This document shows positions 2,578 to 32,805 of a stretch of 64,000 bases of DNA, one piece after another. Each line of letters starts with the position of its first letter. The stretch's first letter is position 1. The notes beneath the pieces are model-generated. The model was not told where the DNA came from. It was given only the letters and a program-made list of their open reading frames with translations, and ran no database searches. The stretch spans positions 496,001 through 560,000 of the forward strand of contig JARGXX010000075.1 of NCBI GenBank assembly GCA_030374765.1. The letters run 5' to 3'. The position numbers and the translations under genes are program-made. The DNA comes from Agarophyton chilense. Lineage: Eukaryota > Rhodophyta > Florideophyceae > Gracilariales > Gracilariaceae.

Positions 2578-3022
2578 TGTGAAAGAGCGATAAAAACGGC
2601 TGAGCCCAGTAAGCCTCCGGGCCTAGAAGGATCTTGCAGGTGACACGTGTACGGGTCGACCTCAGGTGGACTCATGTAGATTATTAATTTAATTTAATTA
2701 TTGTAATAGATTACCACTACAGTGCCAAAGAGATCTCAGCGCCTCGCCAGTAGTAGTCACTTGGCTCGAGTGACGCTTCTCGCTTAAAGTACGATAGGCA
2801 CCATTAGGATACTAAATAACCCTCTTTGGTATATTAGTTCCACCCTTTGGTCTTCAAGCTATCGTTTCCGTAGCTACACCTGTAGGACTACGTAATTAAC
2901 GCCAGCCCATTGCACAAAGTACTCTGGGAGTGCCGCCGTCAAGGATTCGAACCTTAGGACCTGCTGTACCACGCTACTACCGGTCGAGACCCGTACGCTA
3001 ACCCACCAGTCATTGCGTTACG
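2578..3022 (+). repeat. E1 5' LTR (445 bp)
   Basis: Aligns end to end with 11091-11167 joined to 32452-32805 (431 bp). The 14-bp length difference is one deletion near 32608 in the right copy. Starts TG and ends CG, a mutated CA. On the minus strand near 2975-2935 it contains a GGTTCGAATCC T-arm-like block preceded by a D-arm-like block. Confidence 0.93.
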
Positions 3023-11167: not shown

Positions 11168-12085
11168 TGTAGAGCAACGCCCAGTTAGGGGATACTTGAA
11201 GATGCAACTCATAGAATGAGGATTGAACCCTCCGAGGGTTATGACTATGATTCCCTCTAAGGTGTGCTGAGGTGGTACTGTTTTTTGGTTAGAGTTCGCC
11301 TATGGCGTGAAGATTCGGATGGCCCATGGTTGGATTGCCCCCCGTGATACACGTGGCTTAATTTTGGCACCGATTTTTCGGATATTTGTTAGAACGTTGG
11401 ATTTTGGGGCCCTGACAGTGGGATCTCCACGTGTATGGCCCTGAGCAGGTGTGCACTACTGTAGAGTTTAGTTAGTTGGCCCTACTTCGGGAGACGAGAT
11501 CTGACAGTCCGAAGCTCAAAGTAAATGGGAACCAAGGTTGGTCTTCGATACCTTTAGAGGTTCTTCGTCGCCATCGTTTCGGCCTTACAACCCGGAACGG
11601 GCTCTGGTTAGCAACGCCTGCGTAGGGACACGACTCCACTTGGAGAGTGCCCACGTTTGGGTTCCGTGCAACCACCCCCTTGGGACCGCTCAGACGACCT
11701 GCGTGCACGATACCCCGTGGGGGTTCTGCTTACTTGTTGCGTGCTTTTTGTGCTTCCTTTCGAGGATAGGTTTTCGCCCCTGTATTGGGTTTCTTTTGTG
11801 GTTTCGCCCCTTTTCTGGTTCTCTGGTCCGGTGCCTGTTAGAGCCCGACCCTCGCCCCGTTTTTCCTCTTCGCCGGATTTTCCCCCATTCTTTGGGATAC
11901 CCATACCCATTCCCGACCCAACGGTTTCTACCCCTCACCTCCGTCGGTACTGCCGGAATCTCCCGTGGGAGTTACACCACACACTACGGGTGGAACGGAG
12001 GGCTCTGTCTTTGAGTCTGCCTCCCCCAGGGAGCAAGGCTTCGAACACCTTGAGAGCACTTCCTGTCGCCGGGTTTTGCTCCACA
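11168..12085 (+). repeat. E2 5' LTR (918 bp)
   Basis: Matches 22055-22468 plus 31944-32446 along its full length. Starts TG and ends CA. It shows no obvious similarity to the LTRs of E1 or E3, so E2 belongs to a separate family despite related coding regions. Confidence 0.95.
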
Positions 12086-12313: not shown

Positions 12314-14344
12314 ATGTCGCCGCCTACCCGTGGTTCCAGGACTGGATCGAACGGTCAAGCGGATTCAGTGCCCCCTGCCCCGCCTAGGTCGAGGAGCTCA
12401 ATTCCCGAAGATCGGAACGATTCCGGTATCGATCCGGACACTCGGAGAGCACCCTCAGTGGTTTCAGGTCCTCGAGAGGTCGTGGCTGTGGGCCCAGCTC
12501 CAGTGGTGGAGACCCTTTCAGCAGCACCCCGAAGACGGGCCGACCCTGAATTACAGCGCCTGGAGAGTCGAATCGATATCGCCAACGCGGCTCACGTCGA
12601 GCTCCTTCAGGAAGTTACTACCCTCCGCTGCAAGGTGGAGGACGCCCAGGAGCGGGGAGTCGCCGATGACCTTCGTACCCTGAGGAGGGATGTGAACTCC
12701 TTTTTGAAAAGCTTTGGTACCCCTCGGGTCTTTGTCCAGGAGTACCGGAGCCTCGTGGAGGAATACCGCGTGCAAGCGGAACGCTTCCGAGCTCGGCTGG
12801 ACACCCTCGAGGCCATTATCCGTATGGACGGAGACACAGAAGCCTCGAAGGATAAACCCGACGTTTCGGAAGACGAAGAACACCGCTCCGCTAAACGGGA
12901 CCGCCGCAAGTCCAAGAAGAGGGTTCACCTCCAAGAGGATTTATCGGATTCCGATCCCAATCGCTCGTCATCGAGTTCGTCCTCCGAATCTTCGGATAGT
13001 GAAGATGGACGCCGGTCATCCCGGGCGACTCGGTCGAAGGCTACTTACACCTCTCAAGGGGCAATCCGTACCTGGAAGAAGGGTAGGAAACACCTTGGAT
13101 TAAAGGAGCTGAAGCCGACGAATCCTCTCTATCGGAAGCTGCTATCGTACCGCTATTACCGGTTCGATAACCCTTCGGGAGATCGAACATCCCGCGGAAC
13201 GGGTAAGGTCAAGGACTACATCAAAAGGCTGAGCATCACCCTACAGAAGAGGGAGTTCACAGGAACAGACCCAATTCTGGTGCTCGATTTCCTTGCGAGG
13301 TTCGTCCAGGAGGCTGACATCCTCGGTATGAGTGAAGCGCAAGCGTATATTGCATTACCCTATTTCTTAAAGGGGATGGCTGAAGACCAGTTCAACTCCG
13401 TCCGTGGATCATCCCGAGCCTCGGAGGGGGGAGTCACGTGCTGGCCCGAAGCGGTGCAGTACCTCTTGAGGTCGTACGCTACTGGAAATGCGATTCAGGA
13501 AGCAATCCTTGCATTAAGGGATACGCGGCAGAAGCCGATGGAAACCGAAACGGTGTATTCAACTCGCTTGAATAAAGCGTTTCACCGATGCGGGAATGTA
13601 TTCCCCGCCTACGAGAGATGCTCCATGTTTGTGGATGGTTTGGACCCCTCGATAAGGGCATTGGTTGCCCGACATCGGGAAGAGAAGCGCAAGCTGACCT
13701 ACTTGGAACTGGTTCAGTACGCCCAGGCTGAGGGGGATACTCTCCGTGCCCGGCAGAACCGAAAGAGTCGGCCGACACGTGCACTCCTCGCCGATGGAGG
13801 TAACTCGTCTTTGTCACTCGCAGGAGGCCCTGCCCCTGTGGGGGTCAATGATAACATTCACTTCATGGGAAGTAACCCCGAATCTATGGGTACGTCTGAG
13901 TTGCCGTTGACATCCGCTCCGACTACGGATGAAGACCCTGCACTCTATACCCAAGGACGGAGGGTGCCAGCCGCATCGCTACCTTTTGCGAATACCGCTG
14001 CTCGGTTCTCTCGCCCCGGATGGAGGGATACAGCACCACGTCGAGTGGATTCACGTCCACAACCGAACCCGGCAGAGCTGATTTTCTATTTGTGTTACCT
14101 CCGTGGTCACAAAGCACCAAACTGCACATTTCCCCTGCGGGAGGGTTCACGAATTATCGCTCAGTACGAGGCTCTGACCCCTGAGGAGAAAGCTCGAGTC
14201 CCGAGTAGGTCCTATGAGGAACAAAGGATACTCCGAGCTCACCTTGCTGACAGGGATACAAAACTTGTACCCGCGAACGGGGAACAACCGGTCCCCTTCG
14301 AGGCAGCTGCACCGAATTCGGTGGGGTCCGCTTCGAAAAACTAA
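12314..14344 (+). CDS. E2 gag polyprotein (676 aa)
   Basis: An intact frame opening with ATG 228 nt after the 5' LTR. The N-terminal ~120 residues are Ser/Pro/Arg-rich. A helical coil follows, then an acidic and basic Ser-rich stretch (about residues 180-245). A conserved capsid-like region (about 255-470) matches E3 gag closely and E1 gag in part. Near residue 595 there is Y-L-C-Y-L-R-G-H-K-A-P-N-C. This matches the CCHC zinc knuckle of E3 except that the first Cys is Phe, so RNA binding by this knuckle may be impaired. The pol frame begins in -1 relative to the gag stop. The last codons before the stop, TCG AAA AAC TAA, could be a weak slippery site. Confidence 0.9.
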   Translation: MSPPTRGSRTGSNGQADSVPPAPPRSRSSIPEDRNDSGIDPDTRRAPSVVSGPREVVAVGPAPVVETLSAAPRRRADPELQRLESRIDIANAAHVELLQEVTTLRCKVEDAQERGVADDLRTLRRDVNSFLKSFGTPRVFVQEYRSLVEEYRVQAERFRARLDTLEAIIRMDGDTEASKDKPDVSEDEEHRSAKRDRRKSKKRVHLQEDLSDSDPNRSSSSSSSESSDSEDGRRSSRATRSKATYTSQGAIRTWKKGRKHLGLKELKPTNPLYRKLLSYRYYRFDNPSGDRTSRGTGKVKDYIKRLSITLQKREFTGTDPILVLDFLARFVQEADILGMSEAQAYIALPYFLKGMAEDQFNSVRGSSRASEGGVTCWPEAVQYLLRSYATGNAIQEAILALRDTRQKPMETETVYSTRLNKAFHRCGNVFPAYERCSMFVDGLDPSIRALVARHREEKRKLTYLELVQYAQAEGDTLRARQNRKSRPTRALLADGGNSSLSLAGGPAPVGVNDNIHFMGSNPESMGTSELPLTSAPTTDEDPALYTQGRRVPAASLPFANTAARFSRPGWRDTAPRRVDSRPQPNPAELIFYLCYLRGHKAPNCTFPLREGSRIIAQYEALTPEEKARVPSRSYEEQRILRAHLADRDTKLVPANGEQPVPFEAAAPNSVGSASKN

Positions 14345-17300
14345 ACTTGGGAGTCTCCCCTGCGGGAGGGGCGTCTTCTAAGCCGGAGTTGAAGACGCCC
14401 GAGGCGCTCCAGCTTCGCTCCCCAGCTGTGACTATCCTTTCAAGGAGAACGGCTGACACCGACGTTAACTCGGGATACTTTAGTGTCCTCCGTCGCCCGT
14501 GGATACGGTCCCGTAATCTCCGTATTCCGGATCGATTTATGGTAATGGCCAAGCGGAATTATAAAGTATTCGCCGACTTCGGCCTGTCCAACCAGTTTAT
14601 GGTTCGTCAAATATCTGTCCTGGATACAGGAGCCGCTCTTAACTTAATTCATGTTGAATTGTTACCCCCGCTGCTCCGGGTTCAAGTTCGTACCGGTCCA
14701 CGTTTGGGTATCGCCGATGCGAACAACAACTCGCTACGGACGCTGGGTACAATTTCCCTCATGGTGAGGTTAGGCTCCTATCTCGTTCAGCTATAGTTTA
14801 TTGTATGCAAGTCACTTGCAGCACCAGTCATACTGGGTTGTGACTTTTGCGACCGCTTCGTGGAAGCCATCCGTCCTCGGAATAGAACTGTGGAACTCGA
14901 AGACGGGTCTACGATCCCAATCGTTCGTAAACCCTTACAGGGAGCAGCGCTAACACGCGTTCCTCTCCCTGTCGCGCAGGAATCTGTGAAGAAGGACCCG
15001 TTGTCTACACGGGTATAGGTTGCGAAGTCAGTGGCTATCCCGCCAGAAACCCAGGTTTGGGTCACAGTTATCACCAAGCAAATTGGTGTCCATGTGGTAC
15101 AACCGAATCCGTCCCTGTATATGCGGTGTCAACTCGCCCTTGCGAGTGGGGTTGTCTCCGTGGAACCGGATAAACCTTTCAAGGTTTTGGTAGCCAACTT
15201 TGGGAAGACAACGCAGCATTTGGTCAAACACCAGATCCTGGGTTCTGTTCTTCCACACTCGCACGCGGTCGTACCTACAAAGATCTCTATCGCAGAGGTT
15301 CTTGGTGTGGCGGACCCTAAGGAGGGGGAGGACACTGCCAAAATCGCGGAAGACGGTGAGCATACGACTGTAGCTCCACACCCTGAACACTTTAAACCTC
15401 AGGAGGTTACGGCCCCTATCACAGGAGCAGACCAGACGGATCCTGTTCAGGAATTGGAGAAATGGGATCTCAACCATGTACCCGCATCTCATCGGGAGAA
15501 GCTGAGGCACATGCTTCGTGAATTTACCCCCATGTGGGATGGTTCCCTTGGAACAATTGGGATTACAGAACACCGCATCGACTTGTTACCGAACACTCGG
15601 CCTATTGCCCAACATCCTTACAGGGCTGGACCGAAAGCTCGGGAAGAGGAGAAATCTCAGGTGGAGAAGATGCTTAAAGCGGGCGTAATTGAACCTGCCC
15701 AGTCCGCTTGGGCCTCACCCGTGGTGTTAGTTCCGAAACCAGATGCATCGTGGCGTTTCTGCATCGATTACAGACGCCTGAACGAGGTAACCATTAAGGA
15801 TGTGTACCCGATCCCTCGGATGGACGAATACATCGACTCCCTTGGGAGCGCTACTGTTTTCTCTACCCTCGACGCCAATTCGGGCTACTGGCAAGTCCCT
15901 ATTATGGAGAAAGATCGAGACAAAACGGCTTTCGTGTGTCATCAAGGACTTTTCCGATTCCGGAGGATGCCTTTTGGGTTGACAAACGCCCCCGCAACGT
16001 TTCAACCGGCGATAGACATTCTGTTGGCTCCCTCCAAGTGGAGGACGTGCCTAGTGTATTTAGACGACATTATTGTCTTCTCTAACAACCTGGATGACCA
16101 CCTCGAACACGTCAGGGACGTAATGAAGATACTTTGCGACGCGGGAATCACCTTGAAACTCAAGAAGTGCGAGTTTTCACCGATTCGGTTAAGTATCTGG
16201 GTCATATCATCCGTCCCGGACAGCTTTCAATCGATGAAGTACGAGTGTAATCCTTGAAGGAAGCAAAACACCCGAATACTCAAACGGAGTTGCGATCCTT
16301 CTTAGGTCTGTGTAACGTGTATCGCCGATTCGTCCAGAACTTTGCGGATATTGCCACCCCCCTCAACAGGCTCCTGACGAAAGGACAACCAGTTGAACTG
16401 GAACCTTTTGGCGACGCGGAAGCGTCTGCCTTCACGGCACTGGTGAATGCCGTAACATCACTGCCAATCTTGGCTTTACCCAATCCTGGGCTCCCTTATG
16501 AAGTGGACACCGATGCTAGTGCAAACCAAGTAGGGTGTGCACTGTTCCAATCCTCTGAGGATGGTGAACGTCACCCTATTGGGTACTGGTCACGTTCCCT
16601 GAATGTCCATGAAAGGAACTACTCGGTCTCCGAGAAAGAATGTTTAGCCGTTGTGTGGGCCTTAGCTACACTTCGCCCCTATCTGATGGGTACTCGTTTC
16701 AAAGTCCATACGGACCACGCATGCTTGCGTTGGCTCCTGGAGATCTCCGAACCCTCGGGCCGCCTTATGCGCTGGCGTCTCCGACTGTCGGAATTTGACT
16801 TTGAGATCCTGTACAAGAAAGGGAAGCTGAACACTCAGGCTGATGCACTATCCCGCTTGGGAACCACAGCGGAAACGGAACCCTACGAGGGCGATGACAT
16901 CTCATGTTTTATGGTATCGGACCTCGAGGGAGGAGCTCAACCGCTGACGGATGATGTTTGTGACGATATACTCGTCAACGAGAGTCTGGATTCGCCGACC
17001 GGCTCTTTTATACCTATCTCTCCAGAGGAGATGATACGCGAGCAGCAGCTCGACCCATTCTGTACACGGATTCGGGCTCGCCGCAACGGAGGATTTTAGT
17101 TACCTTTCGAGGACGACGATCGGGGTTACCTAATCAGGACCGTTGGACCTCGCCCGAGGATAGTGGTGCCGCACACCCTACAACAGAGGGTATTACACCT
17201 CACTCACTATGTGAAGGTTGGCGCCCACGCCGGGGGAAGAAAACTGTACCTCACGTTGAGAAGGGACTTTCACTGGCCGGCAATGGCATTCGATTGTTAC

Positions 17301-18452
17301 GCCGTCAGACGGGCCTGCACCAATTGCGCCAAGAATGACGTCAAACTTCGGAAGCACTCTAAGAAGTTGACGCTGTTCCCGGCACGGGCTCCACTCAAAT
17401 TCGTGGCCATAGAAATCCTAGGGGAGTTTATCAGGACGCCCCGAGGTCATCGGTATCTGCTTGTCATTTCTGACAGATTCTCTAAGCTAACGAGAACTGT
17501 GCCGCTGAAGCGGATCACCGCCGCAACCGTCGCGCAAGCGTTCGTGACCCATTGGGTGTTCGTATATGGACCGCCGGTGCAGTTGTTATCCGACAACGGA
17601 GGGCAATTCGCATCAAAGTTCTTTCAGGATGTATGTCGAATCCTTGATGTAAGGAATTTATTTGTTACTACGTATCACCCTCAGGGTAATGGCCAGGTGG
17701 AGAGGTTTAACCGCACGATACTCAACGCTTTGAGATCGTATGTTGCGGATCACCCCAAAAATTGGGACTTGTACACAGACGCTATCACGTATGCATACAA
17801 CACCCAGGTACATCGGGTTACATCGCTATCCCCATTCGAACTGGTACTGTCGAGGACACCGCCGCCGGTCGCCATTGAGGCTCAACCGACGCTGTCGACG
17901 TACCCGTTACCGGGATTGTACCGAGAAGCCTGGAAAGAGTGGCTTACAAAGATGGTGCCGATAGCCCGGAAAGCAATGGACAAAGCTCAACGCGCCTACA
18001 AGAAGGACTTTGACAATCGGGTTCGCAAACCTCTACCTCAGGTGGAGCCCGACGACTTCGTCTTCCTTCGAAAGGAATACTACAATCCTGAAAAGGAACG
18101 TAGGCACAAGCTTTCGCCAATTGTGGACGGACCCTATCGTGTGGTTTCTGTAGACCCGGACACGGTGGTATTGGATATCGCTAACCGCCACGAACGGATC
18201 TCCAGGGACCGCATCACACGAGCGCCCAACCCAAATGTGGAAGTGGTGTCGGCACCAACGCCCTCCACAGGGGATGATTCAACGGAAGTTAACCCGTCAA
18301 GCGGAGATTCGAACACCCGCCCCGTTATACTTCCGCACCCGGAACGTGGTTTACCGACCTACCGGAAACTTTGGATACTCCCGAACCTGGGCCCGCTCCC
18401 TCAAGGGCCCAGTCAACGAACTCTTACAGAGTTACTCCCCAACCGGAGGTAG
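14338..18452 (+). pseudogene. E2 pol: protease, RT, RNase H, integrase with three TAG codons and a frameshift
   Basis: The frame lies in -1 relative to gag. The protease has V-L-D-T-G-A near 14617-14634. In-frame TAG codons occur at 14794 and 15016 within or after the protease. The reverse transcriptase (15031-16200) has L-D-A-N-S-G-Y-W and Y-L-D-D (16057-16068). A single-base deletion in a T run near 16175 shifts the frame, which resumes at 16254 with the thumb and RNase H. A third TAG lies at 17097. Integrase (17163-18452) has its zinc finger, L-S-D-N-G and G-Q-V-E-R, and a C-terminal G-P-Y-R-V motif. The first catalytic Asp is Glu (A-I-E-I-L-G). The copy cannot make a normal polyprotein without several suppressed stops and a shift. 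Confidence 0.9.
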
Positions 18453-20116: not shown

Positions 20117-21973
20117 CTACGGAAAGCCCGAGGAGGGACCCGCCCCACCGTTGGGATTCTGACCCTGATGGTACGCCGAGGCGAAAGCCAACATCTGGCT
20201 CACATCCGTCATACCCGGGGGAATCGGAATGCCTGCGTTCACGAGGCCTTGTCGCACACTATCCGCTTGCGGAGTGGCAACCGGCGCCTGCGCAAGGGTG
20301 TTCACACCCCACCCGGAGGGAGCAGATGGACCGCCACCGGATGCATTCGCCGCCGCAGCTGAGGTCGTTCCCACTGGTTGGAAGGGTGCAGATGGATCCA
20401 CAGGGAGTACTCCACTAGGAGCTGGCATGTCGTTATCCAACGCTGGATCGTCCAGGTCTACTGAGGGCTCGTGCTCCTAATCGTCGGTATAAATGAACCC
20501 CGTCGGGTGTCCCACCGGCATCGGTCGAGGCGAGTCAATCAGCGCCCGTGCTTGCGCCGCGCTGATGCGAACCACTTCGAAGGGATTGTAACAGACCCAG
20601 TTAACGGAGCCCGGATCGTACCGGCCAGGAGACTTGTCTCGCGCGGATCATTCCCCTGCGGGCTGATTTTCCACTGGAACTCGATCCCATTGGGTGTTGT
20701 CGATCACGTCTAAGATTGGATACAGGTCTTGCACGTTGCTGACCGAACCCAACGCTGGGACAAGGTCGATCTGACGCATGAAGGTCCGTAGCATCGGAGG
20801 AATATACCAGACACGGAAATGGTCATGAGCATCCCAGAGGAGGTGTGCCGCTACGCGGGCTGCCCACTCGGCTGCAGCGAGGGCCCAGTATCCCGAGTTC
20901 GGGTCGTGCATCAAACGAGACCCGATATAGTAGATGCACGGGGGCAGTTCAGCAAAGCACCCTCGGGGGACCTCGACCTTACTCCACCAAGCTGGAAGGG
21001 GCACGAATCGCCCAACCTTCGCCGTGTTACGGATACGCTCCAGTTCCACGTGAGGATATGGGACAAGGAACCCGAAACGGGAGCGCGAGCGGCGCTCGAA
21101 GCGCACGCGTCAATCGAACCCATACTGGGTAAACTGCCGTTGAAGGTACCTGAATTCAGCCCGAAGGATGGGACGACTCCATTGGAGCATATCTTCTCGG
21201 AGAGGAAAACCCGGTCCGCGGAACTCGGCTTCGGGAAAGGCTGCCAGGTTATCCTTGTAGGAGACCTCACCGTACGTGCGGTAATAGGCGACATCGAACC
21301 CGTACTCCGGGGGAACCAGATGGTCAAAGCGTGATCTCTCCAATCGCTGGTAGGCCAGAGCCGCCATCGCTGCGCACGCCTTGTCCAGGGACTCCCCGCG
21401 ACCGCAGTATAGATACTGAGGCTCTATGGCTACTCGCGCCCTCCAATCGGGAGAACGTACAACCTCGACAGGTAGGCCACCCGGCAATAAGCCGTCCTCC
21501 ACGTAGGAGTCGATGAGCTCATCGTCGCGAACCGCTGTCGGATGGAACCACGGAGCGCGGGAATATATCACTGGATCGGTAAGGGGACTCCACCTTCGAA
21601 AGGATTCGTTTGAGATCCAACCGCTGGAGTTTGCTACCAAGGGCATCGCATGAGCGGAGTTCCACGCCACCGCGTTAATGTCCAAATCCTCCTGAGGATG
21701 TCGGTTGCTCGCCGAGGCGGAAGGTTCGGTACCTGACGGAGCCGCATCCAAACCGGAGAAATATCCACCCTGCTGGGGAGTTTCGTTTTCCGCCGGCGCG
21801 GAGGCCGACGGCCCCGAGAGTGGGTTGGTGACGTATGGGTTCATTCCCTTGAGAGGGTTGGTTGAGACTGCCGTTGCGAGAAGTTGCTTATCGCCGAAAG
21901 TCGGAGGAGTAGGAGAAAGTTGTACCGATGTGCCGGTTTTGTGGCGATCCTCAGAAGTGGTGAAAGACCCCAT
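20117..21973 (-). pseudogene. E2 antisense accessory gene (aORF), homologue of the E3 protein, with stops
   Basis: Runs opposite to gag-pol, with its first ATG at 21973, 82 nt inside the 3' LTR boundary. It aligns by eye along its length with the intact E3 protein. Shared blocks are P-W-F-H-P-x-A-V-R-D, Y-R-T-x-G-E-x-S-Y, R-P-I-L-R-A-E-F-R-Y, G-C-F-x-E-L-P-P, S-G-x-W, E-W-A-x-R-x-A-A and W-Y-x-P-P. An in-frame TGA lies at 21110-21112 in the middle, where the flanking frame continues unbroken. A frame change follows 20648 and a TAG lies near 20478. The C-terminal piece (20440-20117) keeps the Pro/Gly-rich end. No signal peptide, membrane segment or known domain is seen. Function unknown. Confidence 0.75.
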
Positions 21974-22054: not shown

Positions 22055-22468
22055 TGTAGAGCAACTCCCCGTTAGGGTTTACTTGAAGATGCAACTCATA
22101 GAATGAGGATTGAACCCTCCGAGGGTTATGACTATGATTCCCTCTAAGGTGTGCTGAGGTGGCACTGTTTTTTGGTTAGAGTTCGCCTATGGCGTGAAGA
22201 TTCGGATGGCCCATGGTTGGATTGCCCCCCGTGATACACGTGGCTTAAATTTTGGCACCGATTTTTCGGATATTTGTTAGAACGTTGGATTTTGGGGCCC
22301 TGACAGTGGGATCTCCACGTGTATGGCCCTGAGCAGGTGTGCACTACTGTAGAGTTTAGTTAGTGAGCCCTACTTAGGGAGACGAGATCTGACAGTCCGA
22401 AGCTCAAAGTAAATGGGAACCAAGGTTGGTCTTCGATACCTTTAGAGGTTCTTCGTCGCCATCGTTTC
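22055..22468 (+). repeat. E2 3' LTR, left fragment
   Basis: The first 414 bp of the 3' LTR, matching 11168 onward. It is interrupted by E3 after GTTTC. Confidence 0.95.
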
Positions 22469-23333
22469 TGTAGGACAATGCCCCCAAGGGGGAAAACCCA
22501 CGAAGACGTCCGGATCTTCCTCTCACGAGGTGACCGGCGCGGTAGAGCCCTCCCAGGGATCGGCGCGCAATGCCGGATGTAAGCCGGAGCCGAACCGTCG
22601 CGACGGGCGCAGGGAGGCTGAAAGAAGCCGAGAATATCCGCCGAAGCGGTGCTTGCGTATCCTCTGAGGAGGCAAAATCCACGAGAGTGGCGGGCACGAC
22701 AGGCGTCAGTGCGAGCCGCAAGAGCGGGAATTGCCCAATGAACGGGAGGAAAAGGGAAGGAAAATGGGAACGGAGGCAAGAGGGCGAGGTTGACCACGAG
22801 TCGCAAGAGGAGACTCGGGAATAGCCGGCACTGCCGGGTGTAGCAAACCGTATACACGGGCGGAACCACGAAAGTAGGAATAGATACCCAACACACGAAG
22901 GCTGCTTGAACGTCCAAGGGGGTTGGGAAGCCGTGCACCACGGCAAATCCCTCCGTAAGGAGTTGTATATCCGCGCAGGCGGTTCGACCCAGAGCCAAGA
23001 TCTGGAAGACCAAGATCACCCTTGTTGGGCAGACTTTACTGGACCGGCGGCCGCGAGGCCGGCGGCCTAAGTACTGTAGTCACCGTAGAATAGAATAAAT
23101 AAAGTCTATCCTAAATAGCTAAATGTCCGTCTAATAAAAGGGGCCAATCTGGCGGCCACGTGTCGCGCGGGCGCTCCGGCCACGTGTATGGCACCCGGTC
23201 CCGCCGGTGCATCACCGGGGTTCCGGCCATCGCCGTGAAAACGGATTACTCCTACTCATAACGAGGTTGCACGCCGGAGGCTCCGGAAAAAACTTAAGTC
23301 CCTAAAAACCTCCCTGGAGGACGTTGCTCTTCA
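22469..23333 (-). repeat. E3 3' LTR (865 bp)
   Basis: Same length as the 31074-31938 copy and about 98.5% identical. In plus orientation it starts TGTAGGACAATG and ends GTTGCTCTTCA. Confidence 0.97.
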
Positions 23334-23348
23334 TATCCCCCCCCTTAA
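23334..23348 (-). other. E3 polypurine tract
   Basis: On the minus strand TTAAGGGGGGGGATA abuts the 3' LTR. It matches the tract design of E1 and E2. Confidence 0.82.
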
Positions 23349-23380
23349 GACAGGGCGAACACCTCGAAGAGGAAGTCGGC

Positions 23381-25174
23381 ATGGCAGCTCGTCATGATAA
23401 GAGCGCGTCCGACACCGGGTCTCCGGAAACCAACACACCTTCACCAAGGATCCCACGCACGCCCTCCGCATCCGATTCCAACCACAGCACACCAACAAAC
23501 ACCATGTCCAACCCCGACTGTCATAACACATCTGCGACTCCCGCGCTTGGCGGTTCCACCGGCTTCCGGTCCGCGCCCCACCCGGGGGATGTTACCAACC
23601 GAACTCCGGCCGTCAACCTCCCGTACGAAGACCGCCGTATTGGCGCCCGCTTTCGCGGACAGGCGGACCCACCGCAGTGGCCGACCTACGACGCCCTTGT
23701 GGGTGCAAATCCAAGAACTCGGCATGGCTCCGCGAGGTTGCGGTATGAGCCTTGGTTTCACCCATTGGCTGTCCGCGACGAGGATTTGATCCAATCCTAC
23801 ACCGATAATTCGGAGATGCTCCCGGGCGACCTGCCCGGCGTGGTGACCCTGTCCTGGGATTGGCGTAATCGTATCGCCATCCCGGTACACCACATACTCC
23901 GCCGACGCGGTGAATCCTCTGCGGAGGCCCAAGCCGTGCTTGTGCGGATCGCTTTTCTCAGGCACCATCGGGCGCCTTTCGAGTTCCCGATACCGCCAGA
24001 GGTCGAATTCGACGTCCACCTTTACCGCACTTGCGGGGAAATGTCGTACTGTGACCGTCTTAACGGATTGGAAACCCTCGCTTGGAGGGGCACACCGATC
24101 GCTCGGCAAGAAGCCCTTTGCTGGGCACGACCGATTCTTCGGGCAGAGTTCCGCTACCAACCGCGGCAGTCGCGCTCGAACTTCCTTCAGAACTTCATCC
24201 GCGATGAGCGGCGTTGGCGGGCCCGGACCGGGTTTTTCGTACCGTACCAGAACACGGAGATTGAGCGCATCGCGCCTGCTCACCGACGTGGTCGGTACGT
24301 CAGTCTCCCAGACTGGTGGTCCTCCTTGGAGGCGTGCTGGGGTTGCTTCGTTGAGCTGCCCCCAGTATTCACCTATGTAAGGTCGTCGTTCTTGAACGAT
24401 TCCCAGTCGGGGTGGTGGTCCGTCGTGGTAAGCGAATGGGCCGTCCGCACTGCGGCTTTTATCCTCGCTGAGGCGTACGACCAATACCGATGGTGGTACG
24501 TGCCACCGCGTGTGCGGGCTGCGATCCGTCGTTTGGACATGCACATCCCCCTCGGGGGCGAGGCGAACGAAGAAGAGATGCTGGGCCTCCTCGACTTTGT
24601 GGAGGGGGTCCAGTGGGATGAGGTCCCGCTGGGGAACTCCCAACGCATTCAACCGCGTCGCGGGTCTGGCCCCGGACTCGGGAGGAATACCGCGCTAGCG
24701 GGGGATTTCGTCTACTTCGACCCCTGGGAGTACCACGAGATCAGCCGCGAGGAAGCAGAAGCCAACCGGCATGCGCCGCGTGAAGTCCCGGCCGACCACC
24801 CGCGAGGGTATGTCGACTCGAGCGACTATTACCGCGACGATGCGGATGGTGACCCGATGGTCGACAACGAACCGGAGGATCCGGGTTACGCTCCGATGGA
24901 GGATGACGGGTCCGGCGAGGCCGGTGAGGAGTCCGTTGAATACGGTGGTGCGGCTCCATCCGGGGCTGCTGATGCCGTGCGAACGGATTCCTATCCGACT
25001 CCATCGGTGGCGGGCCCGCCCGCAACCGTCGCTGGCGCGGAGCGGGGCGCGGTCATCGCGCGCTTCCTTCGGGAGGTGGGGCTTCGCCCTTCCGAGATCT
25101 CGGGTGATGTGGCCGCCATGCAGGATGCCTTAGCCAACCGCCTGGGCGGAGGTCCACGTCGTGCGGAGGAATGA
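23381..25174 (+). CDS. E3 antisense accessory protein (aORF, 597 aa), unknown function
   Basis: An intact frame running opposite to E3 gag-pol. Its first ATG lies 48 nt inside the 3' LTR boundary. The first ~70 residues are Ser/Thr/Pro-rich and likely disordered. The middle (about 90-420) is rich in Trp, Arg and Tyr, with blocks such as P-W-F-H-P-L-A-V-R-D, R-P-I-L-R-A-E-F-R-Y, G-C-F-V-E-L-P-P and W-W-Y-V-P-P. The C-terminal third is acidic and ends in a short helical segment. The E2 counterpart has the same blocks. I see no signal peptide, membrane segment, zinc finger or enzyme motif, so an envelope function is not supported. Extra genes antisense to pol in this position are known from plant Tat-lineage Ty3/gypsy elements. 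I cannot tell whether this protein is related to them. Confidence 0.85.
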   Translation: MAARHDKSASDTGSPETNTPSPRIPRTPSASDSNHSTPTNTMSNPDCHNTSATPALGGSTGFRSAPHPGDVTNRTPAVNLPYEDRRIGARFRGQADPPQWPTYDALVGANPRTRHGSARLRYEPWFHPLAVRDEDLIQSYTDNSEMLPGDLPGVVTLSWDWRNRIAIPVHHILRRRGESSAEAQAVLVRIAFLRHHRAPFEFPIPPEVEFDVHLYRTCGEMSYCDRLNGLETLAWRGTPIARQEALCWARPILRAEFRYQPRQSRSNFLQNFIRDERRWRARTGFFVPYQNTEIERIAPAHRRGRYVSLPDWWSSLEACWGCFVELPPVFTYVRSSFLNDSQSGWWSVVVSEWAVRTAAFILAEAYDQYRWWYVPPRVRAAIRRLDMHIPLGGEANEEEMLGLLDFVEGVQWDEVPLGNSQRIQPRRGSGPGLGRNTALAGDFVYFDPWEYHEISREEAEANRHAPREVPADHPRGYVDSSDYYRDDADGDPMVDNEPEDPGYAPMEDDGSGEAGEESVEYGGAAPSGAADAVRTDSYPTPSVAGPPATVAGAERGAVIARFLREVGLRPSEISGDVAAMQDALANRLGGGPRRAEE

Positions 25175-25200
25175 CCGGAGCTTCCGGTAGAATTTAGGGC

Positions 25201-25614: not shown

Positions 25615-28600
25615 CTACTCCGGCCCGTATCCGTACCAGCGGGTCCGGTACTGGAGCACCCCGTACCCATCGTAGCTATGTCCGACGATTCGGTCGAGGA
25701 CGTACTCCTGCACGTAAACTTGCCGGCCTTGCCGGGTGGTGGTGGCCCCAGCCTCAGCGCCGCGTGGTGCTGGGCTCGTCGTCGCCTGTTCCGGGTCACC
25801 CGGTTTGTCATTCCGCTCTGCGGTTGTTGCCGGGTTTCCGAGGCTGCCGTACCGCTTCGCGGAAGTTGCCGGCGCGGCCGGGTTGTGTTTCCGCTGGGCG
25901 GTAGGGGCTTCCCTGAAGTCCGCTCTTACCGCGAGTTTGCGGGGGTCCTTCCGTCTTGGTGACGGTTCGCCGGAGGCCTCCGCTTGATTTGCGGCATGCG
26001 GCGTTCCCATTGGTGTGCAGTTTCCGCCGTGCAGTGCGCCGCGGGCGGTGAGTGGTTCACCGTCCCGGCGGTCCGCCTCCGCGGGGTGGCTATCAGCCAA
26101 TGACCGGGATGCCGGGTGCCCATTGGTCCGATCTCCCGCCCGGGTCCCGTGACCTTGAGAACGGGTGGTCGGGCCGTCGCGGACGGTTGGCTCCGATTGT
26201 TCGGCAAGGGAGGCGGTTTTCGACTTGTCGTCGCGCCCCTTTTCCCCCATGGGGTTCGTACCGTTCTCAACGGAGTGGCTCGCTAGACCTGCTTGCGCAG
26301 CGCCCGCCGGAGTACCGGTATCGACCGAAACGCTCGGTGTACGACGGCGAATGCGCGGGGAGCCCTTAGTTGCTTCCACGCGATGCGGAGCGTTCGTAGG
26401 GTCTCGCTTCCCGGCTTCGGGTCTTCGAGCGCCTTGGTTTTCCTTGCGGGGTTGCGTGGCGGTCGGATTGACCGCCGCGTCCCGCGGGAGCGGAGGAACG
26501 TCCGGCGACGATGCTGGATGCCCGCTCGGGGGCCTTGCCCGGGGTGTCCGGTTAAACTTCCGTTGCGACGGCGATGATTCCGCGATTGAGGGGGTCCCCT
26601 CCCCCTCCTTAGACGGAGCGACGGGTGATGGTGGGCTAACCGCGTGGCGGGTATAAATACCGCTGCGCGGCGCCCGTAAGGGTAGCTGGCCGCGAGGGCC
26701 AGGTGTTTCCGGCATTGCCGGTGGTTCCGATAAAGTCGGTATATCGGAGAGACCCCGTGAGGAGTGCGGTACCACGGCGGGGCGCGGTGGCACGTTTAGC
26801 GGAGCGGCGATATCCGGGAAACTCGGTATAAACCGTCGATAGACGTTGACCAGACCTAAAAAGGATCGGAGCTCCGTTTGAGTACGGGGCTCCTTCGCCT
26901 CGCATAGGGACTTGATACGAACTTGTTCGATCATTAACCGTCCTGGACGGATGACGTGCCCGAGATACTTCACCGTGTCGGTGAAGAACTCGCACTTCCT
27001 CAACTTGAGGGTTATTCCTGCGTCTCGCAGTACGGTCATCACGTCCCGCACGTGGGTCAGGTGATCGTCCAGGTTTCTGGAAAAGACAATGATGTCGTCC
27101 AAGTAGACAAGGCACGTGCGCCACTTGAAACGCAACATCAAAATGTCTATTGCCCTTTGAAAGGTGGCCGGTGTATTGTTTAAACCAAACGGCATCCGCT
27201 TGAAGCGGTAGGAACCCGAGTGGCAAACAAACGCGGTTTTGTCTCGGTCCTCTTTTCGGACTGGGACTTGCCAATAGCCCCAGTTAGCATCCAGAGCCGT
27301 AAACAAGGTAGCGTCCCCGAGCGAGTCTATACACTCGTCCATGCGCGGAATCGGGTAGGTGTCCCTCACGGTGACGGCATTGAGGCGGCGGTAGTCAACG
27401 CAAAACCGCCACGTGCCGTCAGCCTTGAGAGCCAGCAGCACCGGTGAAGCCCAAGGAGATTGGGCGGGCTCGATGACTCCAGCACGGAGCATCTTGTCCA
27501 CCTGAAATTCTTCCTCCTCCCGAGCTTTCGGTCCCGCCTTGTAAGGGGGTTGTGCAACCGGACTTGCGTCCGGTAGCAAGTCTATCCGATGTTCGGTTGT
27601 ATTGATCTCACCCAGTGGGCCGTCCCACATTGTGGTAAACTCGCGCAGCATTCCGCGTAAGTGGTCCCGGTGTGAGACCGGTACATGACTCAGGTCCAGG
27701 TCCTCGAGGGCCTTGATCGGGTCTATCTTATCGTAGCTCGTAGGCTGTGCCCTGATGTCAGGTGTGGGAACCAACGAGGTTGGAAATGCATCCGTCTTGA
27801 CGGTTTTATCGAGCGCCAACTGCTGTGCCTCCCCGGAGGTTTCTGCACCGGATACCGGGAGACCATCCTCGGTAGAGGGAGTTATTCCGAGTACTTCGGC
27901 AGCCGTCACCTTTGTAGGGAGCATCGCGAGCGGGTGCGGCGTCACAGACCCAATGACTTGGTTCTTTGCCAGCGTCTGGGGAGCCTTTCCTAGATTGGCA
28001 ACCAACACCCTGAAAGGGGAATTCGGCGTGACTGGCACGATTCCGTTCGCAACGGTTAACTGAAATTTCTCGTACAACGAGGGCAAGGGCTGAACAACCC
28101 GAAGACCGTGTTTACGGGAATTGACTGAAACCATAACCTGGCTCTCCGGGGGTATGGTGACTGACGAGGCAACGCGTAGCTTCGTAGAATCCCGGTTCGC
28201 CGGTGTGGGTTCCTGCGCAGCAGGTAGAGGAACGTGTTTCCTCGATGCCCGCTTCAGCGGTTGACGAACAATGGGGACGGTCGATCCGTCCTCAAGTTCC
28301 ACCTGCTTAAGGCGTGGGCGGATGGCGTTGACAAACCTGTCGCAGTAGTCACATCCCAGTATAACTGGCGCGGCCAGCGAGCGGCACATAATAAAAGTTA
28401 GTTTAACCACCATCCGCCCTAGCCTGACGACCAGGTCGATCACACCAGCCGTTTTCAACGGGTTGTTATTGGCGTCCGACACGTCGGGTACCGTTTCAGA
28501 ACGGATGAGTGACCGCAATGGCGGGGGTAAAACCGATTCCACAATAAAGTTCGGCCCAGCACCTGTATCCAGGACAGTGAGATGTCTCACCATAAACTGC

Positions 28601-28803
28601 GTGTGCAGACCAAGGTCAGCGTAAACCTTGTAGTTACGCTTGGCCATTACCAAGACTCTATCCGGGATCCGGTTATTTCTAATTCGTATCCACGGTCGAC
28701 GGAAAACACCGAGGTGTTTAGAGTCCGCGTCTGCGGTGTCCTTCCTTGTCAGCATTTTCACCGGGGAGCGAGGCATCGGCGCCTCGGGCGTCGTCAGCCT
28801 CAA
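25615..28803 (-). CDS. E3 pol: protease-RT-chromodomain, RNase H and integrase deleted
   Basis: An open frame of 1062 codons in -1 relative to gag, probably entered by frameshifting at 28851-28845. D-T-G-A of the protease is at residues 79-82. The reverse transcriptase occupies about 430-640, with Y-L-D-D at 567-570. The motif-A region reads L-D-A-N-W-G-Y-W where relatives have Ser for the Trp. At about residue 670 the thumb/connection sequence D-I-A-A-P-L-N passes straight into a proline-rich linker that follows integrase in E2. The missing segment corresponds to about 1.95 kb of E2. The chromodomain (about 1029-1062) is cut by a TAG at 25615-25617. The same frame continues beyond it with D-T-P-E-P-I-E-H-L-P, so this stop is a recent mutation or a read-through codon. 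Confidence 0.88.
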   Translation of the reverse strand: MRLTTPEAPMPRSPVKMLTRKDTADADSKHLGVFRRPWIRIRNNRIPDRVLVMAKRNYKVYADLGLHTQFMVRHLTVLDTGAGPNFIVESVLPPPLRSLIRSETVPDVSDANNNPLKTAGVIDLVVRLGRMVVKLTFIMCRSLAAPVILGCDYCDRFVNAIRPRLKQVELEDGSTVPIVRQPLKRASRKHVPLPAAQEPTPANRDSTKLRVASSVTIPPESQVMVSVNSRKHGLRVVQPLPSLYEKFQLTVANGIVPVTPNSPFRVLVANLGKAPQTLAKNQVIGSVTPHPLAMLPTKVTAAEVLGITPSTEDGLPVSGAETSGEAQQLALDKTVKTDAFPTSLVPTPDIRAQPTSYDKIDPIKALEDLDLSHVPVSHRDHLRGMLREFTTMWDGPLGEINTTEHRIDLLPDASPVAQPPYKAGPKAREEEEFQVDKMLRAGVIEPAQSPWASPVLLALKADGTWRFCVDYRRLNAVTVRDTYPIPRMDECIDSLGDATLFTALDANWGYWQVPVRKEDRDKTAFVCHSGSYRFKRMPFGLNNTPATFQRAIDILMLRFKWRTCLVYLDDIIVFSRNLDDHLTHVRDVMTVLRDAGITLKLRKCEFFTDTVKYLGHVIRPGRLMIEQVRIKSLCEAKEPRTQTELRSFLGLVNVYRRFIPSFPDIAAPLNVPPRPAVVPHSSRGLSDIPTLSEPPAMPETPGPRGQLPLRAPRSGIYTRHAVSPPSPVAPSKEGEGTPSIAESSPSQRKFNRTPRARPPSGHPASSPDVPPLPRDAAVNPTATQPRKENQGARRPEAGKRDPTNAPHRVEATKGSPRIRRRTPSVSVDTGTPAGAAQAGLASHSVENGTNPMGEKGRDDKSKTASLAEQSEPTVRDGPTTRSQGHGTRAGDRTNGHPASRSLADSHPAEADRRDGEPLTARGALHGGNCTPMGTPHAANQAEASGEPSPRRKDPRKLAVRADFREAPTAQRKHNPAAPATSAKRYGSLGNPATTAERNDKPGDPEQATTSPAPRGAEAGATTTRQGRQVYVQEYVLDRIVGHSYDGYGVLQYRTRWYGYGPE

Positions 28804-28816
28804 CTCTGAGGACGCC

Positions 28817-28851
28817 TCTCCCGAAGGGGAGACTCCCTCTATTCTTTTCCC
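28817..28851 (-). promoter_or_regulatory. E3 gag-pol -1 ribosomal frameshift signal
   Basis: In the gag frame the codons read CAG GGA AAA GAA TAG. G GGA AAA (28851-28845) is a canonical X XXY YYZ slippery heptamer, two codons before the gag stop. Slipping by -1 enters the pol frame. Twelve nt downstream a perfect 6-bp hairpin follows, TCTCCC-CTTC-GGGAGA (28832-28817). The spacer is longer than the usual 5-9 nt, so a larger fold may be the real stimulator. Confidence 0.65.
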
Positions 28852-30950
28852 TGTACAGGGTCCTGATCGGGCGAAGGCCCGACTTCCTCGGCAACGAGTG
28901 CATGATTCCGTTGCACGGTAGCTACCGCAGGAGCGGGTGGAGATCCACCAGCGTGGTTTGGCGCTGGTGCGGCGCGTGCCGGCTGAGCCGGTTTGTACCG
29001 AGAATTCGGAGTGTGAGCCAATGCCTTGGGGAAGTCCGTCTTCGCGCGGAGATATGACGTGAGTGGCACGGAGCGCTTCTCCTGCGGGGAGAGGGCTTCG
29101 TAATTATCCACCACTCGCGCCATATCGCGTAGCGATAAAAGGCATTGCGGGGAAGTGTGCCCGCGCTCGTAGCACAAGTGGCACACCAACGTCACTCCCG
29201 CGTTTCGCGGTACGGCATTCCGAGCATCGGTGTATCTTCCGGGTTCCCGGTTTCCAACCCATCCAGGGCGCTGAATTCGTATCATTCCGTTCGAGTACGG
29301 CATACGGGGGGCCGGAGTGCGGCGGTCATTAAGATAAAAGACCTGCCCGTTCTCCGTGTCCCTTGCGGTTGAGTCAACCGAGCCATCCGTCGTAGACGGT
29401 AATTCCGTTGTCGGAATAGATACACCATCGTGATGGATGACATTCATATTGTCATAACCTTGTTTGGGGATGCCATCCGTCGCAAATGACGGTGAAGAAG
29501 AGTCTGACTCAAGCAGCAATGCTTTAGCGGCCTTCGACCGGGTTCCCGGATTGCGTGCACGTAGTGCATCTCCCTCTGCGCGGGCAAACTGTACGAGTTC
29601 AAGGTAGGTCACCTTCGGCTCTTGTTCCCTGTAACGGGCGACAAGAGTCTTGATGGCTGGATCCAAGCCATCAAGGAACATCGTACAGCGTTCCCCAGCG
29701 GGGTATACATTACCACAACGGTGGAAAGCCTTATTCAGGCGTACCGAGTAATCGGTCTCGAGCTCGCCGGAGCGTTGTCGAGTGTGTCGCAAAGCGGGTA
29801 TCGCCGCTTGTATCGCGGAGTTGGTTGCGTAGGAACGCAGGAGGTACTGCACGGCCTTGGGCCAGCAGGTCACACCTCCTTCGGAGGCTCGCGACGAGCC
29901 CCGGACCGACAAAAACTGATCTTCAGCGACACCCCGCAGAAAGTAGGGTAGCGCCAGGTAGGCTTGTCCTTCGTTCATTCCGAGTATATCGGCTTCCGCT
30001 ACAAAGCGGTGTAGGAAATCCAAGACCAGAATTGGATCATCCCCAGTAAACGACTGGTTACGAAGTGAAAGCTGCATCCGCTTGATGCAGTCTTTCACTT
30101 TACCCGTGTCACGCGGTATCCGACCTAAAGAGGAATCTTCTAGCCGGTAATACCGGTAAGACAGAAGTGTCCTGTACAGAGGGTTGGTGGGCTTCAAGGG
30201 TTTGAGGCCCGGATGTCGCCGACCCTTGGGGCGCGACCGGATGGCCTCGTAGGTGGCAGAGGACCGCTTTGAGCGGGAAGAGCGCCCATAACGATCCTGT
30301 GGGTCATCGCTCACCGACGAGTCGGAACTCTCCGAGTCACTCCGTTTACCGTCCGACTCAGATGATGAGTCGGATGGGTGTCCGTGCTTACCGTTAGAAT
30401 CCCGGTTCTTCCGGCTCTTCCGGTTCCGCGACTGGGTCTCTCTATGAGAGACAACCGGTCTAGCCGCGTTTGCGGGCAAGGTTAACGTCCTCTCGACCGA
30501 CTCAAGTCGGCTTCCGAGACACTCGAAGCGATTCTCCAGACCTTCTGCGAAGGAAGACGGAGCGCCAAAACACTCGAGTAGCGTATTGACGTCCGACCGC
30601 AATACGCGGATATCCTCGGCTAACTCACTTGTAGGGGGGTTAGCGAGGCTTCCTCGTAAAGAGGTGAACTCCCTCGAGAGGGTATTGTGAGAAGCCCGCA
30701 GGGAGCGGAGCTGCTCTTCCAAGCGTACAATCCGCGCTTGGTCGACCAACCGCGGAGGCGGAGAAACCACCGTTGCGACGGTCGTTAACTCGGAATCGGG
30801 CTGCGGGTCTTCAGTGCCGGTGACCGGTATCTCCCGGGAATCCGGTGTTGGAGCCAGGGCCTGTGGAACATCAGTGCCCCTGGCATCACCGCTTTGGCGG
30901 GAACGGCTGCGTGTTGCAGGACGCTCCATGCTAGGCGGTTTCCTTGGCAT
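28839..30950 (-). CDS. E3 gag polyprotein (about 703 aa)
   Basis: The open frame extends upstream into the LTR (31106), but no ATG is found until 30950, which lies inside the element. A second ATG at 30929 is also plausible. Features follow E2 gag: a Ser/Pro-rich N-terminus, a coil, a Ser/Asp/Arg-rich stretch, then the conserved capsid-like region. A complete zinc knuckle C-H-L-C-Y-E-R-G-H-T-S-P-Q-C fits CX2CX4HX4C. It ends at TAG (28839-28841), just after the slippery site. It should form the particle and bind genomic RNA. It looks functional. Confidence 0.9.
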   Translation of the reverse strand: MPRKPPSMERPATRSRSRQSGDARGTDVPQALAPTPDSREIPVTGTEDPQPDSELTTVATVVSPPPRLVDQARIVRLEEQLRSLRASHNTLSREFTSLRGSLANPPTSELAEDIRVLRSDVNTLLECFGAPSSFAEGLENRFECLGSRLESVERTLTLPANAARPVVSHRETQSRNRKSRKNRDSNGKHGHPSDSSSESDGKRSDSESSDSSVSDDPQDRYGRSSRSKRSSATYEAIRSRPKGRRHPGLKPLKPTNPLYRTLLSYRYYRLEDSSLGRIPRDTGKVKDCIKRMQLSLRNQSFTGDDPILVLDFLHRFVAEADILGMNEGQAYLALPYFLRGVAEDQFLSVRGSSRASEGGVTCWPKAVQYLLRSYATNSAIQAAIPALRHTRQRSGELETDYSVRLNKAFHRCGNVYPAGERCTMFLDGLDPAIKTLVARYREQEPKVTYLELVQFARAEGDALRARNPGTRSKAAKALLLESDSSSPSFATDGIPKQGYDNMNVIHHDGVSIPTTELPSTTDGSVDSTARDTENGQVFYLNDRRTPAPRMPYSNGMIRIQRPGWVGNREPGRYTDARNAVPRNAGVTLVCHLCYERGHTSPQCLLSLRDMARVVDNYEALSPQEKRSVPLTSYLRAKTDFPKALAHTPNSRYKPAQPARAAPAPNHAGGSPPAPAVATVQRNHALVAEEVGPSPDQDPVQGKE

Positions 30951-31054
30951 TGGCCACACCCTCTCGACGGAAGAATAGAAAGCAAACTGGTGAGACCGGA
31001 GAAAACCCGTTAAACGGAAAACCACCTCAGAGAGGACACAAGCGGTCTTGACTT

Positions 31055-31070
31055 CTAAGTCGGGAGACCA
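31055..31070 (-). other. E3 primer-binding site
   Basis: On the minus strand TGGTCTCCCGACTTAG lies 3 nt after the 5' LTR. It is identical to the E2 site. Confidence 0.83.
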
Positions 31071-31073
31071 ATT

Positions 31074-31938
31074 TGTAGGACAATGCCCCCAAGGGGGAAA
31101 ACCCACGAAGACGTCCGGATCTTCCTCTCACGAGGTAACCGGCGCGGTAGAGCCCTCCCAGGGATCGGCGCGCAATGCCGGGTGTAAGCCGGAGCCGAAC
31201 CGTCGCGACGGGCGCAGGGAGGATGAAAGAAGCCGAGAATATCCGCCGAAGAGGTGCTTGCGTATCCTCTGAGGAGGCAAAACCCACGAGAGTGGCGAGC
31301 ACGACAGGCGTCAGTGCGAGCCGCAAGAGCGGGAATTGCCCAATGAACGGGAGGAAAAGGGAAGGAAAATGGGAACGGAGGCAAGAGGGCGAGGTTGACC
31401 ACGAGTCGCAAGAGGAGACTCGGGAATAGCCGGCACTGCCGGGTGTAGCAAACCGTATACACGGGCGGAACCACGAAAGTGGGAATAGATACCCAACGCA
31501 CGAAGGCTGCTTGAACGTCCAAGGGGGTTGGGAAGCCGTGCACCACGGGAAATCCCTCCGTAAGGAGTTGTATATCCGCGCAGGCGGTTCGACCCAGAGC
31601 CAAGATCTGGAAGACCAAGATCACCCTTGTTGGGCAGACTTTACTGGACAGGCGGCCGCGAGGCCGGCGGCCTAAGTACAGTAGTCACCGTAGAATAGAA
31701 TAAATAAAGTCTATCCTAAATAGCTAAATGTCCGTCTAATAAAAGGGGCCAATCTGGCGGCCACGTGTCGCGCGGGCGCTCCGGCCACGTGTATGGCACC
31801 CGGTCCCGCCGGTGCATCACCGGCGTTCCGGCCATCGCCGTGAAAACGGATTACTCCTACTCATAACGAGGTTGCACGCCGGAGGCTCCGGAAAAAACTT
31901 AAGTCCCTAAAAACCTACCTGGAGGACGTTGCTCTTCA
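31074..31938 (-). repeat. E3 5' LTR (865 bp)
   Basis: Partner of 22469-23333. The plus strand near 31700-31745 has AATAAA-rich sequence and the minus strand has a long open frame. Both occur in the other copy as expected for an LTR. Confidence 0.97.
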
Positions 31939-32446
31939 GTTTCGGCCTTACAACCCGGAACGGGCTCTGGTTAGCAACGCCTGCGTAGGGACACGACTCT
32001 ACTTGGAGAGTGCCCACGTTTGGGTTCCGTGCAACCACCCCCTTGGGACCGCTCAGACGACCTGCGTGCACGATACCCCGTGGGGGTTCTGTTTACTTGT
32101 TGCGTGCTTTTTGTGTTTCCTTTCGAGGACAGGTTTTCGCCCCTGTATTGGGTTTTTTTGATGTTTCGCCCCTTTTCTGGTTCTCGGGTCCGGTGCCTGT
32201 TAGTGCCCGACCCTCGCCCCGTTTTTACTCTTCGCCGGATTTTCCCCATTCTTTGGGATACCCATACCCATTCCCGATCCAACGGTTTCTACCGCTCACC
32301 TCCGTCGGTACTGCCGGAATCCCCCGTGATAGTTACACCCCACACTACGAGTGGAACGGAGGGCTCTGTCTCTGAATCTGCCTCCCCCAGGGAGCAAGGC
32401 TTCGAACACCTTGAGAGCACTTCCCGTCGCCGGGTTTTGCTCCAAA
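31939..32446 (+). repeat. E2 3' LTR, right fragment
   Basis: The remaining part of the E2 3' LTR, starting with the duplicated GTTTC and matching E2's 5' LTR from about 11577 to its end. Confidence 0.95.
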
Positions 32447-32805
32447 TACGGTTCGACCTCAGGTGGACTCATGTAGATTATTAATTTAATTTAATTAGTG
32501 TAATAGATTAACACTACAGTGCCAGGGAGATGTCAGCGCCTCGCTAGTAGTATCCACTTGGCTCGAGTGACGCTTCTCCCTTAGAGTACGGTAGGCATCG
32601 TTAGGATACTAAATATTAGTTCTACCCTTTGGTCTTCAAGCCATCGTTTCCGTAGCTCCAACCCGTAGGACTACGCAGTAAACTCCAGCTCATTGCACAA
32701 AGTACTCTGGGAGTGCCGCCGTCAAGGATTCGAACCTTAGGACCCGCTCTACCACGCGACTACCGGTCGAAACCCGTACGCTGACCCACCAGTCACTGTG
32801 TTACA
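32447..32805 (+). repeat. E1 3' LTR, right fragment
   Basis: Starts with the duplicated TACGG and matches the E1 5' LTR to its end at TTACA. AGTAT follows as the E1 target duplication. Confidence 0.93.

Follow-up and report, generated by a model that had tools for sequence, protein, structure and literature searches.

Why are genes that run antisense to gag-pol retained by Gypsy elements of distantly related hosts? The question is raised again by a stretch of 64,000 nucleotides from Agarophyton chilense (C75:496001-560000, the whole of which is hereafter called the window; the genome comprises 79.8 Mb in 135 contigs). A first-pass annotation of the window had described a conserved, unrecognised gene on the strand opposite to pol in two retrotransposon families, E2 and E3, with antisense frames at the same place in a third element, E1. 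We find that this antisense ORF is a genuine protein-coding gene under purifying selection, shared by two Gypsy families and probably by a third. The question can now be tested, as there are at least two families, many stop-free copies, one compact genome, and natural deletions that separate the gene from integrase.

Three Nested Elements

The window contains three nested LTR elements. E2 interrupts the 3' LTR of E1 and is itself interrupted in its 3' LTR by E3, with a 5-bp overlap that reads as a target-site duplication. Their features are as follows:

2578..3021, + strand: 5' LTR of E1
9950..10354, - strand: antisense ORF remnant of E1, C-terminal, matching the C-terminus of the E1-type copies L069 and L070
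11091..11167 and 32447..32804, + strand: 3' LTR of E1, split by E2
11168..12083, + strand: 5' LTR of E2
12314..18452, + strand: gag, RT, RNase H and integrase frames of E2
20120..21973, - strand: antisense ORF of E2, 618 codons, with in-frame stops at codons 288, 442 and 499
22055..22468 and 31939..32444, + strand: 3' LTR of E2, split by E3
22469..23333, - strand: 3' LTR of E3, 865 bp
23334..23351, - strand: polypurine tract of E3, between ORF start and 3' LTR, located by eye
23381..25174, + strand: antisense ORF of E3, 597 aa, intact from ATG to stop; core at about aa 111-490
25615..28803, - strand: pol ORF of E3, 1062 aa; RT by Pfam, followed by Pro/Arg-rich sequence and the beginning of a chromodomain
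28839..31106, - strand: gag ORF of E3, 755 aa, named from its position, with no Pfam match
31053..31070, - strand: primer-binding site of E3, located by eye; identical 18-mer at 12088-12105 in E2
31074..31938, - strand: 5' LTR of E3

The LTR pair of E3 differs at 13 of 865 sites and that of E2 at 28 of 914. The E3 gag aligns with an E2 frame at 47.5% identity over 612 columns. RNase H and integrase are missing from the window E3, which is an internally deleted copy, and its chromodomain start (13.3 bits, below the cut-off) is cut by a stop. The order RT, RNase H, integrase and the C-terminal chromodomain of a Gypsy element were found piecewise, over different copies: the first three domains in E2, an E3-type integrase in another copy (L073), and a Chromo match (E = 3.6e-6) in an E1-type copy.

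Some further observations concern the surroundings. About 350 Pro/Arg/Ala-rich residues stand ahead of the chromodomain in the E3 pol (25618-26793, - strand), and their DNA is common to all 30 E3 loci read, within the 1.5-kb limit of the comparison. Just outside the nest, a 1204-aa ORF (38853-42467, + strand) with a DNMT1 replication-foci domain is a possible host DNA methylation gene. Two adjacent ORFs (54617-56782 and 57029-59491, + strand) match family-A DNA polymerase, the first just below the Pfam cut-off. Elsewhere in the genome, 14 of 15 phycobiliprotein matches lie on contig C39, which is probably plastid, and light-harvesting proteins lie on other contigs, as befits a red-algal host.

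The Antisense Reading Frame of E3

The first-pass annotation is right about an intact 597-codon gene in E3 on the strand opposite to pol: the ORF lies on the + strand, gag-pol on the - strand. The frame is open from 23324. A gap of 47 nt, which holds the polypurine tract, separates the ATG from the 3' LTR, and the other end of the ORF faces the end of pol tail to tail at a distance of 440 nt. This is the arrangement of the antisense ORFs called aORF-3R, which lie between pol and the 3' LTR on the opposite strand. The proposed placement between chromodomain and 3' LTR holds for position and strand, but in the window copy the domains in front of it are incomplete, as described above. Over 23324-25314 the longest open frame has 616 codons, compared with 441 at most in six frames of 1000 dinucleotide-preserving shuffles. 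In many E3 copies the antisense frame is open well into the LTR (up to 685 codons), and an earlier start is possible.

Homologues in E2 and in E1-Type Copies

A full-length, interrupted homologue had been seen in E2, and the 618-codon frame with its three in-frame stops bears this out. It starts 81 nt from the E2 3' LTR and is covered end to end, in one tblastn stretch, by the protein of another copy. BLASTP of the E3 protein against the E2-type protein of another copy (L067) aligned residues 124-507 of E3 in 394 columns, of which 41% are identical (E = 1e-80), and both sequence blocks that had been named as shared, RPILRAEFRY and GCF.ELPP, are present in the E2-E3 alignment. The LTRs of the two elements had been called unrelated. 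They indeed show no significant similarity (best E 0.067), but their first 15 bp are 87% alike. Compared by eye, the primer-binding sites agree at all 18 nt, and the polypurine tracts are nearly identical.

The antisense frames of E1 required a different approach. The window copy is decayed and readable only in a C-terminal stretch, and BLAST of its region revealed no homology to the E2 and E3 antisense proteins. Because this blank reflects the decay of that one copy, better kept copies were needed. E1-type copies elsewhere carry a long antisense ORF, which in L071 is a single frame of 682 codons from ATG; most E1-type copies among the matches listed contain stops. In L069, a chromodomain frame lies beside the ORF on the opposite strand. 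Near the C-terminus, E1-type copies share a basic stretch, PKKRTRL or PKKRARL, which we take to resemble a nuclear signal.

When a profile of 31 E2/E3 proteins was compared with one of four E1-type sequences by hhalign, a score of 49.2 was obtained (P = 1.7e-5, probability 78%), with a collinear alignment of E3 residues 275-474 to E1-type residues 200-418. The best of 100 column shuffles reached 27.8 and the reversed control 19.2; with one E1-type sequence only, the score was 28.6 and the probability 5%. From these profiles, the E1-type antisense ORF is probably a remote homologue of the E2/E3 gene. The original observation on E1 is thereby extended to better kept copies, while the window E1 itself contributes the C-terminal remnant only.

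Distribution across the Genome

At least 71 copies of the E3-type ORF were found at 92-100% identity, 49 of these 71 being stop-free. E2-type matches number at least 131, with the first 300 aa of the E2 protein as query, and copies of the E3 gag (755 aa) at least 59, 30 of the 59 stop-free. For a closer reading, 30 loci of each family were fetched by protein similarity to the query, those of E3 via the ORF. All 30 E3 loci, that of the window among them, have one and the same LTR on one side of the ORF, partly matched in L033, and one and the same pol end on the other. A full-length frame from the usual ATG occurs in 21 of 30 E3 loci and in 10 of 30 E2 loci. Seen from the other side, the best 40 matches listed for the pol end comprise 23 with an ORF match in register among the matches listed and 17 without; some copies may have lost the ORF. 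Length variants of the ORF (591, 597 and 598) differ by whole codons.

Some copies are arranged in particular ways. Three ORF copies follow each other at steps of exactly 9,197 bases (C68:3138139-3158347) and two are 9,249 bases apart (C77:295832-306910), possibly as tandem elements sharing LTRs; a back-to-back inverted ORF pair (L019 and L020) is located at C117:1234742-1239619. A further element family close to E3 is indicated by 53 of the best 150 integrase matches, which show 78-82% identity.

Selection on the Reading Frame

Between E2 and E3, the core of the antisense protein (370 codons) reveals identities of 56.5%, 64.6% and 33.2% at codon positions 1, 2 and 3, where 27.6, 25.1 and 28.4% are expected by chance. 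The corresponding values are 56.9, 68.0 and 29.4% for gag and 70.0, 79.4 and 41.5% for the protease-RT part of pol, where the protease label goes by a sequence motif. By this measure the antisense ORF is conserved like gag and less than protease-RT, which places it at the level of conservation described for aORF-3R. Positions 1 and 2 of the core are kept and position 3 is near chance, as in gag, which marks the ORF as a protein gene that purifying selection maintains. For the E2-E3 core, the BLOSUM score averages 2.21 when read in the coding frame, whereas none of the other five frames exceeds 1.08; the two tails are weaker, with 0.67 and 0.91.

Within families, we calculated dN/dS between copies, a check that the first-pass annotation had suggested. 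The sets comprised full-length frames only, from 21 of 30 E3 loci and 10 of 30 E2 loci, near-duplicates included. The ratio is 0.548 for E3 (202 of 210 pairs of 21 sequences below 1), 0.571 for E2 (45 of 45 pairs of 10 sequences) and 0.33-0.38 in four of four comparisons of the E1-type ORF.

Variants were further separated by frequency, in 28 of 30 E3 loci (L018 and L019, near-duplicates of neighbours, being excluded) and in all 30 E2 loci. Positions were dropped if they had three or more alleles or less than 80% coverage, and the p values are nominal, from several tests. Singleton variants of E3 appear neutral (w 1.00; 249 N and 109 S), and among those in three or more copies amino-acid changes are depleted (w 0.46; 18 N and 17 S; p = 0.036). 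For the E3 core the contrast is 1.14 against 0.32 (p = 0.009). Shared variants of the E3 C-tail go the opposite way (w 2.07; 5 N and 1 S, at 6 sites). The same contrast is not significant in E2 (0.84 against 0.58, p = 0.28) and amounts to 1.10 against 0.63 for the E3 pol end (p = 0.13); E2 and E3 pooled give p = 0.032.

The strand needs separate consideration. On the opposite strand, the frame whose third positions coincide with those of the gene also scores low, and in E2 it scores as low as the gene itself, both in dN/dS (0.562 versus 0.571) and in shared variants (0.44 versus 0.58), so that within-family ratios alone leave the strand unsettled there. This opposite frame contains 16 stops in E3 and 21 in E2, and its low ratio is therefore read as wobble shared with the gene. 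The argument for coding is carried by the between-family result and the open frames. That the gene is an old, retained part of the lineage, as had been proposed, is supported by the E2-E3 homology, the probable E1-type homology, the gag-like codon conservation and the dN/dS values.

Integrase-Less Copies of E3

Among the matches listed, the ORF and gag were paired in 33 cases, two of which, at 12.4 and 13.6 kb, were excluded. By the gap between ORF and gag, the remaining 31 pairs form classes of about 5.6 kb (13 pairs), 4.3 kb (9 pairs) and 3.0 kb (4 pairs), with five others including the window copy. Copies with the 4.3-kb gap occur on contigs C77, C1, C68, C88, C4, C96, C6 and C22, and those with the 3.0-kb gap on C88, C6, C115 and C111. 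A 491-base probe from a 5.6-kb copy proved to be integrase, 74% identical to that of E2. Within the best 150 matches to it (97 at 90% identity or more), from which a partial or weaker match could be missing, integrase is found inside 13 of 13 copies with the 5.6-kb gap and in none of the 18 shorter ones. The antisense ORF is stop-free in 14 of the 18 shorter copies and in 7 of the 13 that bear integrase.

Apparently, deletion classes were amplified that have lost integrase and kept the antisense gene. The pattern is suggestive only, because a pair required both ORF and gag among the matches listed, gag was kept as well, and the short classes may be young. That E3 might be non-autonomous as a family, an idea which had arisen from the window copy and from the pol 3' end common to 30 loci, is ruled out by the integrase in all 13 longer copies.

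Protein Features and Database Searches

The core of 380 residues contains 16 Trp in E3 and 13 in E2. It is flanked by tails that consist to 50-55% of Pro, Ser, Gly, Ala and Thr, the C-tail being acidic. In line with the first description, neither a membrane segment nor a zinc motif is visible: hydropathy over 19 residues reaches a maximum of 1.17 in E3 and 0.93 in E2, no segment being strongly hydrophobic, and one Cys is invariant among seven aligned E2/E3 sequences. No nuclear signal was noticed in the E2 and E3 proteins.

With E values of up to 10 allowed, Pfam yielded no match to either the E3 or the E2 protein, a bZIP domain included; PHROGs yielded none to the antisense protein, and PDB sequences none to the E3 protein. 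Under the same limit, the profile PF04195 (TRP28) matched neither these two proteins nor the E1 frames of the window, and at 0.01 it did not match the E1-type ORF of L071. The sole PF04195 match listed genome-wide (C115:1611170-1611286, 20.2 bits at a cut-off of 26.2) coincides with no listed ORF place. Homologues were absent from viral_contigs and genome_contigs, both poor places for an algal element, and no host homologue appeared among the best-scoring genome matches listed.

Possible Functions

Our preferred reading, held tentatively, is that the antisense product regulates the LTR or chromatin of its own element and is transcribed antisense from the 3' LTR. The short distance from start codon to LTR in both E3 and E2 leaves little promoter room outside the LTR, and the gene would be driven by an antisense promoter within that LTR or next to it. 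The antisense mRNA would then arise only from an integrated copy, never from packaged sense RNA, which would suit a regulator of the element's own expression. The product would be soluble, with a Trp/Arg-rich core and disordered tails, and might serve as a transcription or anti-silencing factor that is specific to its element and acts on that element's LTR or chromatin. Element-specificity is suggested because integrase-less derivatives would borrow integrase in trans and yet keep their own antisense gene.

A cofactor that works with Gag in structure, packaging or nuclear import is less likely, although it has several points in its favour. The ORF is conserved at the level of gag, the two are kept together in integrase-less copies, and a protein with disordered-looking tails and no transmembrane segment would fit such a role. 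However, a message presumably absent from packaged RNA would be an odd supply route for a particle protein, and no Pfam domain, Gag-like or other, was found.

Somewhat less probable again is a captured host gene that was kept as an accessory gene and is possibly enzymatic. A core between low-complexity tails is compatible with this origin, and red algae are thinly represented in protein family libraries. Against it, each of the 30 E3 loci read is part of an element and, as a weak point, the best-scoring copies listed include no host homologue.

That the antisense RNA alone matters, for example in double-stranded RNA control, with an incidental reading frame, is very improbable. Overlap with the sense transcript is unavoidable, and such RNAs are discussed for other elements in PMC7264820; as the sole function, this explanation is refuted by the constraint at codon level and the whole-codon length variants. 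An RNA effect could hold in addition. An env-like or cell-exit protein has still less to commend it, since the position between pol and 3' LTR is usual for env-like genes but the strand is wrong and the hydropathy maxima are low. A chance open frame in GC-rich DNA, for which one might cite a frame of 403 codons on the opposite strand, is refuted by the shuffles, by the E2-E3 homology, and by that rival frame itself, which has 9 stops in E2 and a w of 1.02-1.21 in E3.

If the reading as a regulator is true, an LTR antisense promoter coupled to a control protein arose more than once.

Comparison with Known Systems

As a working model for the action of such a regulator we use HBZ, the antisense product of HTLV-1. 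The likeness has its limits: HTLV-1 is a retrovirus and HBZ a bZIP protein, in contrast to the product described here, in which no Pfam domain was found. In HTLV an antisense promoter is located in the 3' LTR (PMC7264820).

The closest parallels are plant Gypsy elements. According to PMC7264820 and PMC11963269, the aORF-3R of Grande (GENE23), RIRE2 and Retand (ORF4) is a long ORF between pol and the 3' LTR, antisense to gag-pol, which occurs in most copies of a family, is conserved about like other element proteins and has no clear similarity elsewhere. The ORF of E2 and E3 resembles it in position, strand and gag-like conservation; GENE23 is likened to it by description. In Grande, a separate promoter lies upstream of the antisense gene, which encodes a nuclear protein (PMC7264820). 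In contrast, Retand belongs to the non-chromoviruses of flowering plants and carries TRP28 in 97% of clusters (PMC11963269), while the elements studied here have a chromodomain, reside in a red alga and lack a TRP28 match. Tandem arrays are common in Retand elements.

Outside plants, Boty of Botrytis and Sclerotinia has an antisense ORF at the same place (PMC7264820), and our protein is set beside it by description. LTR elements of bdelloid rotifers likewise carry extra genes, the family-specific ORF3, whose types include env, DEDDy, GDSL, CC and TM; these are not called antisense in the sections of PMC5408684 consulted.

The gene had been thought possibly new. In the open-access literature, subscription papers being mostly outside the scope, we found no antisense ORF in a red-algal LTR element, and the protein is unmatched in the searches made, but the arrangement as such is familiar from plant and fungal Gypsy elements (PMC7264820 and PMC11963269). 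Judged from sequence comparison, protein family and host lineage look new and the arrangement known. It is conceivable, though we consider it doubtful, that the gene represents an independent origin of an antisense regulator besides the TRP28- and Boty-type ORFs, with a previously unseen fold and an action on its own element only, for which integrase-borrowing copies would keep it.
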